Assembly (NCBI GenBank): GCA_019359375.1
Contig: JAHHHL010000009.1
Location: 1 to 64,000 of the forward strand
DNA from: Lyngbya sp. HA4199-MV5
GTDB taxonomy: Bacteria > Cyanobacteriota > Cyanobacteriia > Leptolyngbyales > Leptolyngbyaceae
Direction of reading: 5' to 3'
DNA: 64,000 bases
The notes below the pieces were generated by a model. It made no database searches. It was not told the DNA's origin and saw nothing but the letters and a program-made list of their open reading frames with translations. The position numbers were made by a program, and so were the translations under genes. Positions 16,756 through 39,399 of the stretch are shown in pieces; position 1 is the first letter of the stretch, and each line of letters starts with the position of its first letter.

Positions 16756-17175
16756 TCACGATCGCCAGTTATCGAGCCTTAACTCATAGCCGCGTGACTG
16801 AACGCGTTGATAGTGAGCTTGATTGCCAGTAACTAAGGTTAGATCGTTTTGTAGGGCAGTGGCAGCAATGATGGAATCTGCAATACCAATCATCTGACCT
16901 GAGCGCTGGAGATCAGCGTAAATTCGTCCTGCTAACACGGCTACAGGTGTATCAACGGTTAAAACCTCTGCGGTAGACAACGAGGCTAGAAAACGTTGAA
17001 TGTGATCGTTCCGCTGGAGTCGATGCCATCCTCGAACAATTTCCATGACGGTGATCACGGAGAGCGTGTAGCGATCGTATGCTTCAAGGTAAACGTTAGC
17101 GCGTACAAGGACTTGTGGATTAATCCCTTTCAGCACCTCTGACAGGCTATCGGTGTCTAAAAGTGCTTTATCCAA
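16756..17175 (-). CDS. PIN-domain toxin, VapC-like
   Basis: A 139-residue PIN-domain ribonuclease of the VapC kind. The first acidic motif is LLDTDSLSEVLKG near the start, and GIADSIIAATAL supplies the later catalytic aspartate, followed by LVTGNQAHYQRV. Such toxins cleave tRNA or rRNA when the antitoxin is lost. I set the start at the TTG at 17,175, which overlaps the antitoxin stop (17,168-17,170) and fits the family start DKALLDTD; an upstream TTG at 17,211 would overlap much more. Translational coupling with the antitoxin is likely. Confidence 0.82.
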   Translation of the reverse strand: MDKALLDTDSLSEVLKGINPQVLVRANVYLEAYDRYTLSVITVMEIVRGWHRLQRNDHIQRFLASLSTAEVLTVDTPVAVLAGRIYADLQRSGQMIGIADSIIAATALQNDLTLVTGNQAHYQRVQSRGYELRLDNWRS

Positions 17176-17410
17176 GATTTTGCTGGCGATCGTACTCGCG
17201 ATCGTGCCCAATCGACTGCATGACCTGCTCCATCAGTTCCGGCTCGTCAGCAAAGAGTCCTGTGAGTTGGCTGCTGGCGATGATCGGCTGATGCTCCGCT
17301 TCCTGACTCATGACGCTAATCTTGTCCAGAATCAAAGTGGCGATCGTATCCTGCTCCGATTCTGATAGTTGAGAAACGGCGGCGATCGCGGCTTCCAGGC
17401 GGTTTGTCAT
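17168..17410 (-). CDS. Antitoxin of the VapC-like toxin
   Basis: An 80-residue acidic protein directly upstream of, and overlapping by eight bases, the PIN-domain toxin gene. It begins MTNRLEAAIAAVSQLSESEQ, an amphipathic helical pattern common in cyanobacterial antitoxins paired with PIN toxins. A DNA-binding fold is not obvious, so assignment rests on gene order. Confidence 0.72.
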   Translation of the reverse strand: MTNRLEAAIAAVSQLSESEQDTIATLILDKISVMSQEAEHQPIIASSQLTGLFADEPELMEQVMQSIGHDREYDRQQNLG

Positions 17411-17460: not shown

Positions 17461-17682
17461 TTAGGATGCAATTTGGTAGATGGCGGGGCGATATTTGGGC
17501 AACGGGATAGGTTTTCCCTCTGCCTTTGCCGTTTCCAACCAAGACGCTTTTGCTTGCAGGACTTCGTGAACAGCCTCTTCAACCGTTTCACCAAAGGCAG
17601 AGCAGTATTTCAAATCGGGAATATCGGCGATGTAGCCTTCATCTTCTTCGCTGTAAAAGATGTTGATGTGATAGTCTTTCAT
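17461..17682 (-). CDS. HicB-like antitoxin, apparently orphan
   Basis: A 73-residue protein with the partial RNase H-like fold of HicB: MKDYHINIFYSEEDEGYIAD, then IPDLKYCSAFGETVEEAVHE and LQAKASWLETA. HicB proteins neutralise the mRNA-cutting toxin HicA. No HicA (a roughly 60-residue dsRBD-like protein with a catalytic His) is adjacent. The gene upstream ends 2 bp before it and is not HicA. Confidence 0.78.
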   Translation of the reverse strand: MKDYHINIFYSEEDEGYIADIPDLKYCSAFGETVEEAVHEVLQAKASWLETAKAEGKPIPLPKYRPAIYQIAS

Positions 17683-17684
17683 AA

Positions 17685-17888
17685 CTATTTGCCAGCTTTA
17701 ATCAGCAGTACCGTTTGCACACTGTTCATCCAATCTTCCCAGGCGGCAGGATCAGCAGTTTCGTTTGTGTCAGCAATGAGTAGATCGGAAAGCAATGCCC
17801 CAATGTCATCAGATTGGGTGCGATCGTACACACCTTCTAGAAAGCGCACCATTGCCTCAAATGCTTGCCGTTCGGTTAGTTTTGCCAT
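17685..17888 (-). CDS. Small protein upstream of hicB-like gene, unknown
   Basis: A 67-residue acidic helical protein (MAKLTERQAFEAMVRFLEGV) that stops 2 bp before the HicB-like gene, so the two are almost certainly co-translated. I recognise no family. It may be an accessory of the same small module. Confidence 0.6.
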   Translation of the reverse strand: MAKLTERQAFEAMVRFLEGVYDRTQSDDIGALLSDLLIADTNETADPAAWEDWMNSVQTVLLIKAGK

Positions 17889-17927: not shown

Positions 17928-18236
17928 TTAAAGAGAACCTGCAAGTCCCGTTTCTGCTGTCCGACGTTTGGGAAGCTGGTTTTTGCCTGCGTTTCTGATT
18001 TCACCCTTCCTGACTTGCACCCAAAGTTGCTCACCGCTTGGTAAGGTTTTGGCATACCAATCAGTGCCGTATTTGTCAGCGCCAAGATAATAAGCAGATG
18101 ACATTACGACATCAACGAAAAGCTGCCTATTTTCTGGCGTGTCCTCGGCTAAATGCCCTTCAGCATCACGAAAGATATGTCTGGAATGCTTGGCAATCCC
18201 CTGTTCTAATCTCGCTCTCGTTTCTGCCTCTGACAT
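17928..18236 (-). CDS. Small conserved hypothetical protein
   Basis: A 102-residue protein beginning MSEAETRARLEQGIAKHSRH. The middle (NRQLFVDVVMSSAYYLGADK) and LPSGEQLWVQVRKGEIRNAG look like a small cyanobacterial family whose members carry the pattern of Trp and Tyr residues around KYGTDWYAK. It lies upstream of the HicB-like pair on the same strand, with a 39-bp gap. Function unknown. Confidence 0.6.
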   Translation of the reverse strand: MSEAETRARLEQGIAKHSRHIFRDAEGHLAEDTPENRQLFVDVVMSSAYYLGADKYGTDWYAKTLPSGEQLWVQVRKGEIRNAGKNQLPKRRTAETGLAGSL

Positions 18237-18265
18237 TCCTCTAGTCTAGTTGTAGTTCCCTCACC

Positions 18266-18358
18266 TTTCATCCCTCATCCCTCATCCCTCATCCCTTCCC
18301 CGCTTCCTCCGCTCCCCCAGCCTTCTGCCTTCTGCCTCCTGCCCTCTGCCTTCCCCTC
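18266..18358. repeat. STRR heptamer tract touching the NACHT gene stop codon
   Basis: Two blocks: CTCATCC repeated three to four times, then CTTCTGC/CTCCTGC/CCTCTGC units. The TGA of the leftward NACHT gene lies at the very edge of the second block. Confidence 0.85.
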
Positions 18359-21275
18359 ACTCCATCCCCAACTGCCGCTTCAGCGCCTCCGGCACATTCA
18401 CCGCTGTCTCTAACCCTTGCACACCCTCCCAGTTTGTCTTCTCATCCCAGGAGATATCTCTAAGATCGGTATCACTTAAATCAGCTCCTCTAAAATTAGC
18501 TCCTTTAAAATCAGCGCGGAAGAGATTGGCGCGGAAAAGATTGGCGTTGACGAGGATGGCATTTTCGAGATTAGCGTTGACGAGGATGGCATTATCGATA
18601 TCGGCACGGGAAAGGTTTGTGTTGACGAGGTTGACGCGAAAGAGGCTAGCGTTGACGAGGCTAGCGCTGTCAAGGTTAGCGTTGGCAAGATTAGCCTTGT
18701 CGAGGTCAGCGCTGGTGAGGTCAGCGCTAGTGAGGTCAGCGCTAGCAAGGTTTGCGCTGGCAAGGTAGGCATTGGCGAGGTAGGCACTGGCGAGGTAGGC
18801 GCGGCAGAGAAAAGAGCCAGCAATGTTGGTAAAGGTTGCATGACACAGGCAATCGCTGTAGTGAATGACTGTCGATAATTGATGGGTGTAAGGTTTTCCC
18901 TCAGCAGCCTGTCCACTAGGGTAAAAGATGATTTGATCCTTCAAGTCGTCACGGTCTTGAGCATACCGATTCAATTCCAGCAGCAGAATCATCACGTTGA
19001 GTCCAGTGTAGACATCAACCTGGCGCTGTCCGAGTGGTTTTTCCTGGTCTGATAATTGCTCCTTCAACAACCGCATTTTCTTTTGAGGCAGGTTCTCCGG
19101 TGGTGCATCAATAAATTCGCCATCGCACCAGCGGAGATAGAAATCTTCCAGTCGTTGAAATAGACGCACCGGATTAAATTCATCGCTCTTATCTAGCAAT
19201 GCCATCAGGTACTCAACAATCTCAGGGGTGAGTCCGCCGTAGCCCAGTAGATCATAAATTTGCCTATCCATTTTGTCGGTTGAAACCTGATCTTTCTCGC
19301 TTCGACGTTCCTGAATGCGATTTGTCCAGTCAAGCATTGCTTCTTTGAGACGTTCGGCGCAGAGAAATTCACCAAAACTCTTGTGGGCAAACTCCACCGA
19401 GCCGCTGCCTGCGCGTCCGGGCTGGAGATAAAACGCGGCTAAGGCATTGCGGAGCGGATCACCGGAATCACCTTTAAGACGATCGCGTGCGTCCTTGAGC
19501 AGGTTTTTTGCCTCCTCATCCCCCTCCAGACGGTCTTCAATCATTTTGATGGGAGCGCACTCACCGCCAGACTGCACGACGCACAATCCCGCTTCTGCCA
19601 GAATGCGGCGCAGGCTCTCCGGTTGGAATTCAGTGATTTTCTGATTTAGCCCATCGGCGCGCTGAGTGTTTAACACCCAATCCAGAGTGCGCTCATAGAT
19701 GAGGACTTTTGCCTGTCCACCGCTGACACCCTCAAACATCTCCAGCCTGAATTCCCCATCGCGGTGCATGGCGGCAAGCAGGTAGAGCAGCAACGGTTCC
19801 CGCGCCAGTTCCCGCACCCGATCGGGCAACCGCTCATCCTGCAAAATCGCCTTGAGATGCACCGGATCGACGTTGTTCAGTTTGCCCCATTGGGTAAACC
19901 ACCGTTCCTGAAGCTCGTCATCCATCGGCAGCAGTTCGACCCGCTCCAGATTGGCAGGCATGAGGCGTTCGATGCTCTGGAGGGAGAGCGATCGCCCCGT
20001 GATCAGCACCCGATGTCCCTTCTCGGCATTGTCCTTGCAGCTTTCCTGAAAGCGTCTCACCTGTTTGAGAAACTCTTCTAACCCACCGCTGGTTCTGCCT
20101 TCCATCAGCAGTTCATCAAAGCCGTCCAGCAGAAACAGAAAGCGAATGTTGCGATCGGTCAACCAGCCGGGATCGGTGCGGGCAAAGTCGCGATCGACGG
20201 CTTTCCGCAAGGTTTCCTCAAAGTCTTTTTCCAGTGTGCGGAGGTCGCGCAGGCGAATGAGAATAGGAGTCCAGCGGGGATGCTCGTGTTGCCGTACCCA
20301 ATCGGCGAACATGCGGCAAAACACACTTTTCCCCCGTCCGGGACCACCCTGAATGAACATGACGCGATCGCGCCTCTGGTCATCATTCAGCAGATCCTTT
20401 GCCCACTGCTCCAGCTCAATGGATTCCTTGTCCTCATCCACCTCGCCATCGGTTTGCATGAACTGCGCCTTCAGCGGCACGTAGATATCCCGAAAGGTGA
20501 AGTTCTCTGCAAAGACCTTTTCGAGCGGACGAGTCTGAATCTGCTGCGCCAAATAATCATCAACGCTGGTGTATTTCTCCAGCACTTCCCGCCCACCGAC
20601 GCGATACCATTCCACCAGTCGCTTGACCCCATCGCCCACCTGAGCCAGCGCGGGCGGCATATATTCGTCGGTCTTGCGAGCCACGCGATCGACCAGCGTT
20701 TGCGCGTCGGTGGTTTCCAGCCCTGCCTGCACCAGTCGGGCGTGCAGCACCTCGTTAAACGCCGCCGCCAGCTTCGATTCATGGAAGTAAAGAATGGCTT
20801 TGCGGGCATCGCGATCGTCAATTTCCAGATCGCCCAATTTCTTGATTTGCTGAGCGATCGCATCTGAAACAGGCACGTTATCCAGGCGATTCAGCACATC
20901 CGGGGTTTCTTTTAAGATGACCTGTAAACTTTCCAGGTAGGCAACCTGACTCACCAGGGCAACGCATTGTTCTAGACTCGGTTCCTTGTGGGTGTAGTCG
21001 CACACCAATTTCAGAATGGTGATGGCAAGCGGCGCAAAGGGAATGGTGTCTTTGACAATCTGAGCAAAGGGTGCATTCAGCACATCCAGCAACGACGAAA
21101 TCTGCCCGATGTAGGGTTTCAGCGTTTCCACCTTTGGCTGCTGCTCTTTGACTGTTTTTGCCAGATCAAACACGGCTTTGGCGGCATCCGTCCCGGTTTT
21201 TGTCACCTCAGCCGTTTGTTTCCAGTTTAAATCCTGAATGTCGGTGTTGAGAAATGCCCAGAGCTTCGTCAGCAT
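18357..21275 (-). CDS. NACHT NTPase with C-terminal pentapeptide repeats
   Basis: A 972-residue STAND-class ATPase. Residues 1-290 are a helical N-terminal region of unknown effector role. The NACHT core follows: Walker A GGPGRGKS at about 310-317, Walker B LFLLDGFDE at about 380-388, then winged-helix and helical regions. Residues about 830-945 are pentapeptide repeats (ANLASADLTSADLTSADLDK) that would form a right-handed quadrilateral beta-helix, ending with a WDEKTNWEGV cap. Bacterial NACHT proteins include anti-phage NLR-like systems in which the C-terminal part senses and the N-terminal part kills; others are uncharacterised. No recognisable nuclease or protease motif is present in the N-terminal part. 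Two toxin-antitoxin-type modules lie just downstream. Confidence 0.88.
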   Translation of the reverse strand: MLTKLWAFLNTDIQDLNWKQTAEVTKTGTDAAKAVFDLAKTVKEQQPKVETLKPYIGQISSLLDVLNAPFAQIVKDTIPFAPLAITILKLVCDYTHKEPSLEQCVALVSQVAYLESLQVILKETPDVLNRLDNVPVSDAIAQQIKKLGDLEIDDRDARKAILYFHESKLAAAFNEVLHARLVQAGLETTDAQTLVDRVARKTDEYMPPALAQVGDGVKRLVEWYRVGGREVLEKYTSVDDYLAQQIQTRPLEKVFAENFTFRDIYVPLKAQFMQTDGEVDEDKESIELEQWAKDLLNDDQRRDRVMFIQGGPGRGKSVFCRMFADWVRQHEHPRWTPILIRLRDLRTLEKDFEETLRKAVDRDFARTDPGWLTDRNIRFLFLLDGFDELLMEGRTSGGLEEFLKQVRRFQESCKDNAEKGHRVLITGRSLSLQSIERLMPANLERVELLPMDDELQERWFTQWGKLNNVDPVHLKAILQDERLPDRVRELAREPLLLYLLAAMHRDGEFRLEMFEGVSGGQAKVLIYERTLDWVLNTQRADGLNQKITEFQPESLRRILAEAGLCVVQSGGECAPIKMIEDRLEGDEEAKNLLKDARDRLKGDSGDPLRNALAAFYLQPGRAGSGSVEFAHKSFGEFLCAERLKEAMLDWTNRIQERRSEKDQVSTDKMDRQIYDLLGYGGLTPEIVEYLMALLDKSDEFNPVRLFQRLEDFYLRWCDGEFIDAPPENLPQKKMRLLKEQLSDQEKPLGQRQVDVYTGLNVMILLLELNRYAQDRDDLKDQIIFYPSGQAAEGKPYTHQLSTVIHYSDCLCHATFTNIAGSFLCRAYLASAYLANAYLASANLASADLTSADLTSADLDKANLANANLDSASLVNASLFRVNLVNTNLSRADIDNAILVNANLENAILVNANLFRANLFRADFKGANFRGADLSDTDLRDISWDEKTNWEGVQGLETAVNVPEALKRQLGME

Positions 21276-21405
21276 GGTCTGTTTTCCTGCGATCGCTGCC
21301 TCGAAACTAGCTCAAAAATTTATTGGTGCAAAGGTAAAGCAGCGAAGGCAGATGAGCCAGAAGGCTGCGGCAGGTGTTGGTGTTAATTGAATTAGGTGCG
21401 CGATC

Positions 21406-21458
21406 GCCCTCTGCCCTCTACCGTTACACCTTCTGCCCTCTGCCCTCTGCCCTTTGCC
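21406..21458. repeat. STRR heptamer tract (CCCTCTG type)
   Basis: Copies of GCCCTCT/GCCCTTT in the gap between the divergent NACHT gene and the secreted-protein gene. It belongs to the same word family as 18,266-18,358, so the NACHT gene is flanked by it on both sides. Confidence 0.85.
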
Positions 21459-23052: not shown

Positions 23053-23289
23053 AACAACGGCGCAGTCAATGCCAAGGCGCGGAGAGACAACTCTATAGAC
23101 CCTTTTAGAGTGCCCTAATTTTTGCCTCACTCAGCACCTTAAACGCACCAGCACCTGACCACAGACCCTTTTAACAGAGAAAAAAGAAGGGTACAGAACG
23201 GTGTCATCTTGCCAGAGACGATCGCTAGTCATCTCGGCGAGAACAGTGGCAACAGTATATGAATAGACCTCAACCATTTGTGCGACGTA

Positions 23290-23685
23290 ATGTTGAAAGT
23301 AACAATCAAATCTGCCAACACAGATGCAAAACTGGAATTTTCAGAAGTTGGAAATGAATACTTTACAGTCACGTTTTCAAGCGTCTCTCTGAGTGCATCA
23401 CATCGAGTTTGGGGTTACACCGGGGACTGTGAACGGTTAGTCAGTTTATTTGTGGAGATGGCGGAAAACTGGACAGGTTGGGAAGGTATCAAAAACTGGG
23501 ATGCTATTGAGGATGACTTTAGTCTCTCTTGCACTTCAGACAAACTAGGGCATATTACGCTTGAAGTCGAGTTAGTAGGGCGTGATACTCCTGAGTTATG
23601 GTCTGCAAAGTTCAATGTAGAGGTCGAAGCTGGACAACTTGAAAAAATAGCAAACGAAATGAAGGCATTGTTTAGCAGGTGCTAG
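23290..23685 (+). CDS. DUF6228-like protein
   Basis: A 131-residue protein from ATG 23,290 (an in-frame TTG lies 12 bp upstream). Conserved features include the tryptophan pair in NWTGWEGIKNW, GHITLEVEL, and the C-terminal EVEAGQLEKIANEMKALF, which fits the DUF6228 pattern. The fold is likely a beta-sandwich. Function unknown; some relatives are found beside contact-dependent toxins as possible immunity proteins, but no toxin is present here. Confidence 0.6.
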   Translation: MLKVTIKSANTDAKLEFSEVGNEYFTVTFSSVSLSASHRVWGYTGDCERLVSLFVEMAENWTGWEGIKNWDAIEDDFSLSCTSDKLGHITLEVELVGRDTPELWSAKFNVEVEAGQLEKIANEMKALFSRC

Positions 23686-37492: not shown

Positions 37493-39244
37493 TCAAGGCT
37501 TAATAAGATAGCGCTCAGTCTTGCGGTGGGCAAAAAGCATATTGGTACGTCTTAAGTAAAGGTGACTCACTAAAGTCCCTAAAGCAAGGCTGCTGCTGAG
37601 CAGGACTGTGAAGATGGCTAAGTTCATAAACCCGATCGCGAAGCCTAGACCAATGCTGGAGCCTACGGTTGCAATCAACAAAGCTGTTGCGATAGCGGTG
37701 GCTTTGGGGCTATCGCTCACAATGAGCTTTTCTGCAGTCATACCCGTCATCACTCCAATGACAGCACCATTAACGACTCCCGCTCCTGCCCCCAAAACTA
37801 CCACGAATCCTGCTGTCGTGAGATCACTGGCAAGTGCCCCTATCAGCGCAGCAACACCGACCCCTATGGCTGCTAGTGTGCAAGTTGTAGAGCCAGTGCG
37901 TCCGCCTGCTGATCGCATTAACCAGGCTGCAAATTCAAGACCGATCGCAGTACCAACCACCGCCCCAAAGCCAGCGGTGGACGCTGATTTATCAACTGTG
38001 CCTAGACTCAAAACGACTGAAGCAACCAGCCAGTTCACGATGAGAGCAACCGCTCCCAGAAGCAGCAAAAGTCCTTTGGGCAGAGGGGAAGATGCCGCAG
38101 GCACCGCTGCTGTCCGAATCTGGAGATTGAGTGAGTAGGTTTTTGCTAGGGTGTTGGTGTAGAGAAGTAGCTTGCGATGGTAGGTTTTCCCAGTCATAAG
38201 CTTACGTGTATCCACAGTTACCTGGCATTCCACCTGATTGTCGGCGAATGTGGCGGGGGTAATAGAAATCCAACAATAGCGATCAGTTGGTGGATCATGT
38301 GGATGTGGTGAAATCTCCCACGTCCCCTCTAAAAGCGTGTCTGGAATGGGGTTGGTGAGTGTGACTGCTTGAGTCAGACGATCGCCCAGACGAGCTGCAT
38401 GAAACTCTAGGGTTGCCTGACTAAATTGGGCATCGGGAGGACGTAGAGGGGATGTAGGCACAGCAGCTAATGCTGCTAATGCATTGGGGAAACGCTCCTT
38501 TAAGCGTGGCTCTACCATCTTCTCTAACCAATTTACCCACTTTAGGTTAAATGTTGGCACCAGGTGCTTAAAGCTAACGCGATAGCTAATATCAACGAGA
38601 TCTCCAATTCGGTCAGATTTTGTACCAGTTAAGAGACAAATCAATGTCATTCCCAGTCCATAGAGATCTGAGGCTTCTGTAAGTTGACGGTTAAAGAGTT
38701 GTTCAGGTGGCATGAACCCTAGCGTTCCTTTGACCACACTACTCACACCGACATCTTCTCCACCGATGCGTGCAAAGCCAAAATCGACTAAGTAAACGGT
38801 GCCGTTTTCGTCGAGGAGGATGTTTTCGGGTTTAAGATCGCGGTGAATAATAGCAGGAATGCGATTCTGAAGATAAACCAGAATCTCTAGCACCGCGATC
38901 GCAATCCGTCGAATGTCTTCTGGGTTAAAGCTACGATTTTCTGATAAAGACGTAGCATGTTTATACTCCTGCACCATACAAAAGCCATCAGGAGTTTGGA
39001 ATGAATCGATGTAATGAGGGATACCAGGATGATCAAGTTGCTTTAGAAATTGAATTTCGCGATCGTACGCATCGTATTCCGCCCAGCTTGCCCCTGTTTT
39101 TGCGAACTGAAACTGCTTGATGACAACTTTCTTCTGAGTGCGTGTATCACTTGCCAGATAAGTCACTCGACCACCGGCACGATTATGACCCAGCTCTTTC
39201 TCAAATTGATAGAAGCTGTTAGGAAAGTCTGGAAAGTCACTCAT
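37493..39244 (-). CDS. Ser/Thr protein kinase with beta-sandwich and glycine-rich membrane domain
   Basis: A 583-residue Hanks-type kinase from ATG 39,244 (the TTG at 39,256 is less likely). Residues about 10-270: a kinase with VVIKQFQF, catalytic HRDLKPENILLD and VDFGFARIGG. Residues about 280-390: a beta-rich domain (LLEGTWEISP, CWISITPATF, VECQVTVDTRKL) seen in other cyanobacterial kinases. Residues about 395-575: at least five hydrophobic helices dense in Gly and Ala. The start of the kinase reads GHNRAGGRVTYLAS, a glycine-rich loop with an unusual order. It would sit in a membrane with the kinase in the cytoplasm. No substrate gene adjoins it. Confidence 0.9.
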   Translation of the reverse strand: MSDFPDFPNSFYQFEKELGHNRAGGRVTYLASDTRTQKKVVIKQFQFAKTGASWAEYDAYDREIQFLKQLDHPGIPHYIDSFQTPDGFCMVQEYKHATSLSENRSFNPEDIRRIAIAVLEILVYLQNRIPAIIHRDLKPENILLDENGTVYLVDFGFARIGGEDVGVSSVVKGTLGFMPPEQLFNRQLTEASDLYGLGMTLICLLTGTKSDRIGDLVDISYRVSFKHLVPTFNLKWVNWLEKMVEPRLKERFPNALAALAAVPTSPLRPPDAQFSQATLEFHAARLGDRLTQAVTLTNPIPDTLLEGTWEISPHPHDPPTDRYCWISITPATFADNQVECQVTVDTRKLMTGKTYHRKLLLYTNTLAKTYSLNLQIRTAAVPAASSPLPKGLLLLLGAVALIVNWLVASVVLSLGTVDKSASTAGFGAVVGTAIGLEFAAWLMRSAGGRTGSTTCTLAAIGVGVAALIGALASDLTTAGFVVVLGAGAGVVNGAVIGVMTGMTAEKLIVSDSPKATAIATALLIATVGSSIGLGFAIGFMNLAIFTVLLSSSLALGTLVSHLYLRRTNMLFAHRKTERYLIKP

Positions 39245-39399
39245 GCGTGTTGCCAAGGTATACTAAGTAAATTGAACTTACTGTGTTGCATAGAGTCTAC
39301 GTGAAATTTTGAAAAATGCACATTTTCTCTAATTCTTCGTCAAGAGTAATTCCTTTTTAAAAGTTTGGCAGACTTTCCCATCCAGCTACAGCTTGCAGT

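Follow-up and report, generated by a model that had tools for sequence, protein, structure and literature searches.

Architecture of the protein encoded at the locus

The window analysed here is a 64,000-nucleotide stretch of DNA from the cyanobacterium Lyngbya sp. HA4199-MV5, and its relevant features are listed in Table 1. The NACHT gene is real and intact, running from ATG to stop without internal stop codons. The original prediction, which divided its product into an N-terminal part, a NACHT ATPase and a pentapeptide end, holds with corrections. The AlphaFold2 model of the whole protein has a mean pLDDT of 81 and a pTM of 0.72.

Table 1. The NACHT gene, its parts and its neighbours in the window, with NACHT-less relatives at other loci.
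Feature	Position	Strand	Remarks
NNH3-NACHT-HD1-WHD-HD2-pentapeptide protein	18357..21275	-	972 aa; relatives in 42 loci
Conserved 5' leader, ~65 bp, AGGAA-type ribosome-binding region and GCGATCGC site	21276..21340	-	
N-terminal peptide, res 1-27, conserved Trp6 motif (MLTKLWAFLNTDI)	21195..21275	-	low model confidence
NNH3 domain, res 50-261, all-helical	20493..21128	-	Pfam PF22735, E 5.6e-60
NACHT NTPase domain, res 304-463	19887..20366	-	Pfam PF05729
Walker A, res 310-317, GGPGRGKS	20325..20348	-	Lys316 in 32/33 full-length relatives
Walker B, res 378-392, RFLFLLDGFDELLME	20100..20144	-	Asp384, Asp387, Glu388 in 33/33
TGR motif (sensor 1), res 426-428	19992..20000	-	33/33 full-length relatives
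Winged-helix His631 (VEFAHKSFGEFL)	19383..19385	-	33/33; also 75/75 in wider set
HD2 module, res ~641-815 (RWCDGEFIDA...YTGLNVMILLLEL)	18831..19355	-	no Pfam match
Pentapeptide beta-helix, res 819-945	18441..18821	-	hypervariable candidate sensor; 15/30-bp in-frame tandem duplications
C-terminal cap, res 946-972, conserved	18360..18440	-	85-96% in nearest relatives
STRR heptamer arrays directly 3' of NACHT gene	18257..18353	.	
STRR heptamer array 5' of NACHT gene	21406..21458	.	
VapC-like PIN toxin (16756-17211) and small overlapping upstream ORF (17168-17410)	16756..17410	-	neighbours, outside system
HicB-like antitoxin ORF	17461..17682	-	neighbour
NACHT-less HD2 + pentapeptide protein	L065:7077-8801		
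NACHT-less HD2 + pentapeptide protein	L069:7980-9077		
NACHT-less HD2 + pentapeptide protein	L071:7884-9647		
NACHT-less HD2 + pentapeptide protein	L149:4253-5956		
NACHT-less HD2 + pentapeptide protein	L150:9004-10773		
NACHT-less HD2 + pentapeptide protein	L153:6120-7838		

The NACHT domain matched its Pfam profile with an E-value of 5.7e-10 (39.7 bits against a cut-off of 26.7), and the Walker A, Walker B (FLFLLDGFDEL) and TGR motifs are all intact and conserved, in agreement with the predicted ATPase domain. The residue counts in Table 1 were taken from an alignment of 33 full-length proteins, and the wider set contains 75 sequences. The winged-helix histidine, located in the motif VEFxHKSF, is invariant in both. 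In NLR proteins this histidine holds ADP in the resting state; by analogy, His631 may do the same in the cyanobacterial protein. Residues 229-777 of the predicted model aligned with NOD2 (5irn; Z 18.7, 386 residues, rmsd 4.9), NLRC4 (4kxf; Z 17.2) and NLRP3 (7vtp; Z 16.7). The model and the histidine together point to an NBD-HD1-WHD-HD2 module like that of the NLRs, and this domain order and the histidine motif are common to the three animal proteins and the cyanobacterial one. However, no N-terminal CARD or PYD was detected in the latter, and the C-terminal leucine-rich repeats of an NLR in the strict sense are absent; Pfam places pentapeptide repeats there. Against the nearest relatives, dN/dS was 0.05-0.14 in the NNH3, NACHT and HD1/WHD parts. 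In one NNH3 subgroup (L185-L193), the Walker A motif starts with Ser rather than Gly in 10 of 16, and Lys-Thr is kept.

The N-terminal 290 residues had been predicted to be helical and uncharacterised. The NNH3-only AlphaFold2 model is indeed all-helical (pLDDT 77), and no described function of NNH3 was found in a literature search; the region is not family-less, since NNH3 matched with 203 bits (cut-off 27) over positions 2-213 of 213. The profile search and structure prediction proposed for this part thus gave a Pfam family but not a PDB fold. The fold search of the PDB with the NNH3-only model returned no match (best Foldseek E 0.11), and the best VIA match (Z 4.0) was to unrelated helical proteins. 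A HeLo/MLKL-like four-helix bundle, suspected from the IPFAPLAITILKL hairpin, is neither supported nor excluded at a best VIA Z of only 4.0. The hairpin must be inessential to the family as a whole, because NNH3 subgroup C lacks it. Comparison of the NNH3 alignment profile with PDB sequences retrieved nothing but WD40 proteins, none of which had a stretch that passed by itself; the result was discarded as an artefact.

An enzymatic NNH3 was set aside as improbable, as a conserved catalytic-type constellation is absent across the 75 sequences. The peptide that precedes NNH3, modelled with low confidence, has a Trp near residue 6 in 86% of the aligned sequences, which makes this segment a candidate functional peptide. 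NNH3 is probably a non-enzymatic effector acting on the membrane or by partner recruitment; this is the most likely role, at low confidence, and the mode of action is a guess because a fold match is absent. NNH3 would then be an effector class without a fold match in the present search. Other cyanobacterial NACHT proteins of this family share the NACHT-pentapeptide architecture; within the family, the HA4199-MV5 protein belongs to the subgroup with a strong HD2-module match, and two other subgroups exist.

Sequence turnover in the pentapeptide block

The C-terminal part consists of pentapeptide repeats, as predicted. The best stretch of the Pfam match covers residues 896-935 (E 4.1e-21), and register analysis resolved residues 821-945 into about 23 clean A(D/N)LXX units. 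In the model, the C-terminus aligned with pentapeptide solenoids at Z values of about 19-22, including HetL (3du1). The NCBIfam similarity to HetL (E 9e-17) is below the cut-off of the HetL model. The beta-helix predicted here is thus shared with HetL, NP275/276 and other pentapeptide repeat proteins; those proteins stand alone, whereas the present helix forms the end of an NLR-like receptor and changes at a much higher rate.

The four nearest relatives are 93-96% identical to the protein in NACHT, 88-93% in NNH3 and 85-96% in the C-terminal cap. The pentapeptide block is only 44-58% identical, with gaps in five-residue steps. Set against the L036 genome as a control, 13 other orthologous pentapeptide proteins of the HA4199-MV5 genome are 67-96% identical in their repeat blocks (median 89%), and the same measure gave 45% for the NACHT gene. 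Within the block, the buried i positions are 72-86% identical and the exposed i+1/i+2 positions 5-44%, and dS is raised together with dN (for example, dN 0.42 and dS 1.66, versus 0.02 and 0.31 in NACHT), with an uncertain alignment register in the repeats. The joint rise argues for replacement or turnover of repeat units, not clean codon-by-codon positive selection. Such variability supports the beta-helix as the probable sensor named in the original prediction.

The C-terminal part ranges from 101 to 401 aa across the relatives, and the tandem arrays in 15-bp phase differ between lineages; for example, L050 contains 31.5 copies at 88%, and L053 short patches only. The array scores are above those of the other pentapeptide genes of the genome (median 192 versus 60), where the p-value of 1e-4 is indicative only, as related genes were counted as if independent and array length raises the score. 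Most other pentapeptide proteins in the same genomes also carry some 15-bp repeats. No donor copy for gene conversion of the sensor was found: the genome has no other copy, and the genus holds the ortholog only (68-71% DNA identity). The sensor has likely been rewritten by repeat turnover through lineage-specific in-frame 15-bp tandem duplications, a simplest mechanism that we infer from the arrays rather than observe.

Distribution and genomic context

NNH3 was found in 47 of the 386 sampled cyanobacterial genomes (about 12%), and in 18 of 42 of the order. Of the NNH3 proteins above 780 aa in the loci examined, all 75 end in pentapeptides, so the NNH3-NACHT-pentapeptide architecture is a family trait. 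The genome of HA4199-MV5 itself contains 22 NACHT matches over the cut-off. A second NNH3-NACHT gene (C86:153855; L085:5996-8563) belongs to another subgroup, with a short pentapeptide tail and no HD2-module match. In the same genome, seven NACHT-domain genes are located within about 36 kb (G000:C20:23811-59486).

About 15 Nostocaceae loci share one conserved chromosomal site, where a WD40 gene precedes the receptor gene and genes for Uma2, FtsH and a transporter follow it. The WD40 protein directly upstream (for example, L038:5665-7428) has a conserved N-terminus (MDWISLLKAQQSDFLQRV). This was the only conserved partner gene, and it is absent beside the NACHT gene in the window. In Leptolyngbya-type relatives, the gene is in a different place each time. 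This is how an accessory gene behaves that stays in place in one order but is acquired, relocated and lost in another. Receptor-gene copies are located on four plasmids, and truncated or internally deleted relatives are common. The 5' leader is 79-98% identical over the last 39-136 bp before the ATG in six relatives from different neighbourhoods; in most pairs the homology does not extend beyond about 65 bp before the ATG. Despite different neighbours, identity to L057 is 95% over the 58 bp that follow the stop. The C-terminal cap occurs on its own only in L034 (10996-11067, a second copy 3' of the receptor gene) and L065 (13481-13564).

STRR tracts bracket the gene as predicted: the window contains four heptamer arrays, and three of them (18257-18296, 18320-18353 and 21406-21458) flank the gene. 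The prediction that it adjoins toxin-antitoxin genes was partly borne out. The VapC/PIN (E 3.9e-12) and HicB-like (E 1e-6) ORFs are located 0.7-1.6 kb downstream, but the nearest ORFs (17685-17888 and 17928-18236) matched no family. A relative of the small ORF overlapping the PIN gene was found near the receptor gene in L036, and the 146-aa gene adjoining here was found without the NACHT gene in genomes of the same genus. The STRR and toxin-antitoxin surroundings add little to the receptor interpretation. PADLOC, including its Avs models, gave no match for the NACHT protein (E up to 1) or its neighbours in the window. Among 144 neighbour proteins of 27 loci, read without a random-locus control, no recurrent defence family was found; only scattered Uma2, PIN and generic ATPase/kinase matches occurred. 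Viral contigs contained no close relative, with weak NACHT-level matches only. Elsewhere in the window, a Ser/Thr kinase-like protein (37493-39256) had its best NCBIfam match to MAD6 of a methylation-associated defence system (E 1.1e-27, far below the MAD6 cut-off), and a DUF6228 protein (23278-23685; Pfam E 4.9e-24) is located a few genes from the receptor.

Possible function and alternative explanations

We consider it somewhat probable that the gene encodes a single-gene NLR-type receptor (STAND NTPase) with a diversifying sensor and an NNH3 effector, for which phage is the leading ligand candidate. In the resting state, the ADP-bound NACHT module would be held shut by the winged helix via His631. 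The pentapeptide beta-helix, sitting on HD2 and capped C-terminally, might bind a foreign or stress-derived ligand by its outward-facing side chains; binding would then allow ADP/ATP exchange and ring-like oligomerisation, and so cluster the NNH3 domains and the N-terminal Trp peptides. These would act, probably non-enzymatically, through membrane damage or recruitment of a host partner, leading to growth arrest or cell death. The sensor would be rewritten by in-frame 15-bp duplication and loss while switch and effector are conserved, a pattern that a changing ligand, most likely phage, would be expected to produce.

Phage defence is suggested by the architecture, the hypervariable sensor and the known activity of bNACHT proteins against phage (PMC12169576) rather than by the context, and is plausible by this analogy. 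Of the "defence NLR" predicted earlier, the NLR-like receptor with a pentapeptide sensor finds good support in the switch residues, the structural matches to NOD2, NLRC4 and NLRP3 and the variable sensor. The patchy distribution, truncations, deletions and plasmid copies also count for the receptor. The defence part fared less well: the PADLOC, defence-island and viral-contig negatives count against it, as does the conserved Nostocaceae site, which is more like that of a resident gene.

This fixed site, between housekeeping-type genes (FtsH and an AI-2E-type transporter) and behind the WD40 gene, would suit a STAND-type signalling or developmental regulator, in which the ATP switch would respond to a metabolite or protein of the cell itself and control a host process such as differentiation or programmed cell death instead of phage defence. 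The lack of defence neighbours and the resemblance of the pentapeptide end to the heterocyst-differentiation protein HetL (Z 19.3) agree with such a regulator, which we nevertheless consider unlikely: a self ligand should conserve the sensor, yet this is the fastest-changing part, and the gene is patchily distributed, repeatedly truncated and found at changing sites in Leptolyngbya-type genomes. The host belongs to that group, in which, to our knowledge, heterocysts are not expected.

The variability might also be neutral repeat slippage in a relaxed spacer or oligomerisation scaffold. The widely varying array length, the joint rise of dN and dS and the slippage-prone nature of 15-bp arrays are consistent with this; however, other pentapeptide proteins, most of them with some 15-bp repeats, stay well conserved, and the buried positions, the reading frame and the cap beyond the block are kept, which makes a mere spacer quite improbable. 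Least credible, and indeed very improbable, is a selfish or accessory cassette (leader-ORF-STRR) that was inserted recently, is now decaying and no longer has a function. The block of the 146-aa neighbour does exist without the NACHT gene, 5' homology does stop shortly before the ATG and relatives are often truncated, but the ORF is intact, the switch residues are invariant and dN/dS is low in NNH3, NACHT and HD1/WHD.

The individual parts of the proposed receptor are known; what is new is their combination, together with an HD2 module that is not listed in Pfam and a sensor with rapid turnover. Variable C-termini are believed to let bacterial relatives of NLRs recognise invaders, and the sensing logic is known for few. 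The candidate sensor here is a simple solenoid, the faces of which are legible in the sequence, and it varies sharply between close relatives on a near-constant chassis; sensor swaps would therefore directly test how a bacterial NLR gains specificity. Antiphage bNACHT proteins such as bNACHT25 likewise combine a central NACHT, an N-terminal candidate effector and a C-terminal candidate sensor in one protein. In bNACHT25/32 the effector is a PD-(D/E)XK nuclease and the C-terminus is NCH1 (PMC12169576), whereas the cyanobacterial protein has NNH3 and a pentapeptide beta-helix, and its protective role is putative. Conflict systems of multicellular prokaryotes (TRADD-N, EACC1-type) also include STAND NTPases and pentapeptide repeats among their domains (PMC8195603, PMC7159879); unlike these cyanobacterial systems, the NACHT-pentapeptide protein gave no match to a TRADD-N, EAD or caspase domain.

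The segment that follows the winged helix corresponds to HD2 in the structural alignment of the predicted model. This module was present in 36 of the 386 cyanobacterial genomes, and also in pentapeptide proteins of 530-625 aa without NNH3 or NACHT. In three genomes (L149, L150 and L151), such a short form is located near a long form. Many short forms share an N-terminal LSQ(V/I)W motif with the long forms, and therefore look like internal-deletion derivatives. It is possible, though doubtful, that this is a bacterial NLR family diversifying its recognition surface without a retroelement, by recurrent in-frame 15-bp duplication and loss that would alter the exposed helix faces on an otherwise constant switch, effector and cap, with the NACHT-less proteins as decoys or co-receptors. 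In an in-frame internal-deletion derivative of 238 aa (L172:7225-7941), a portion of NNH3 runs straight into the C-terminal cap.
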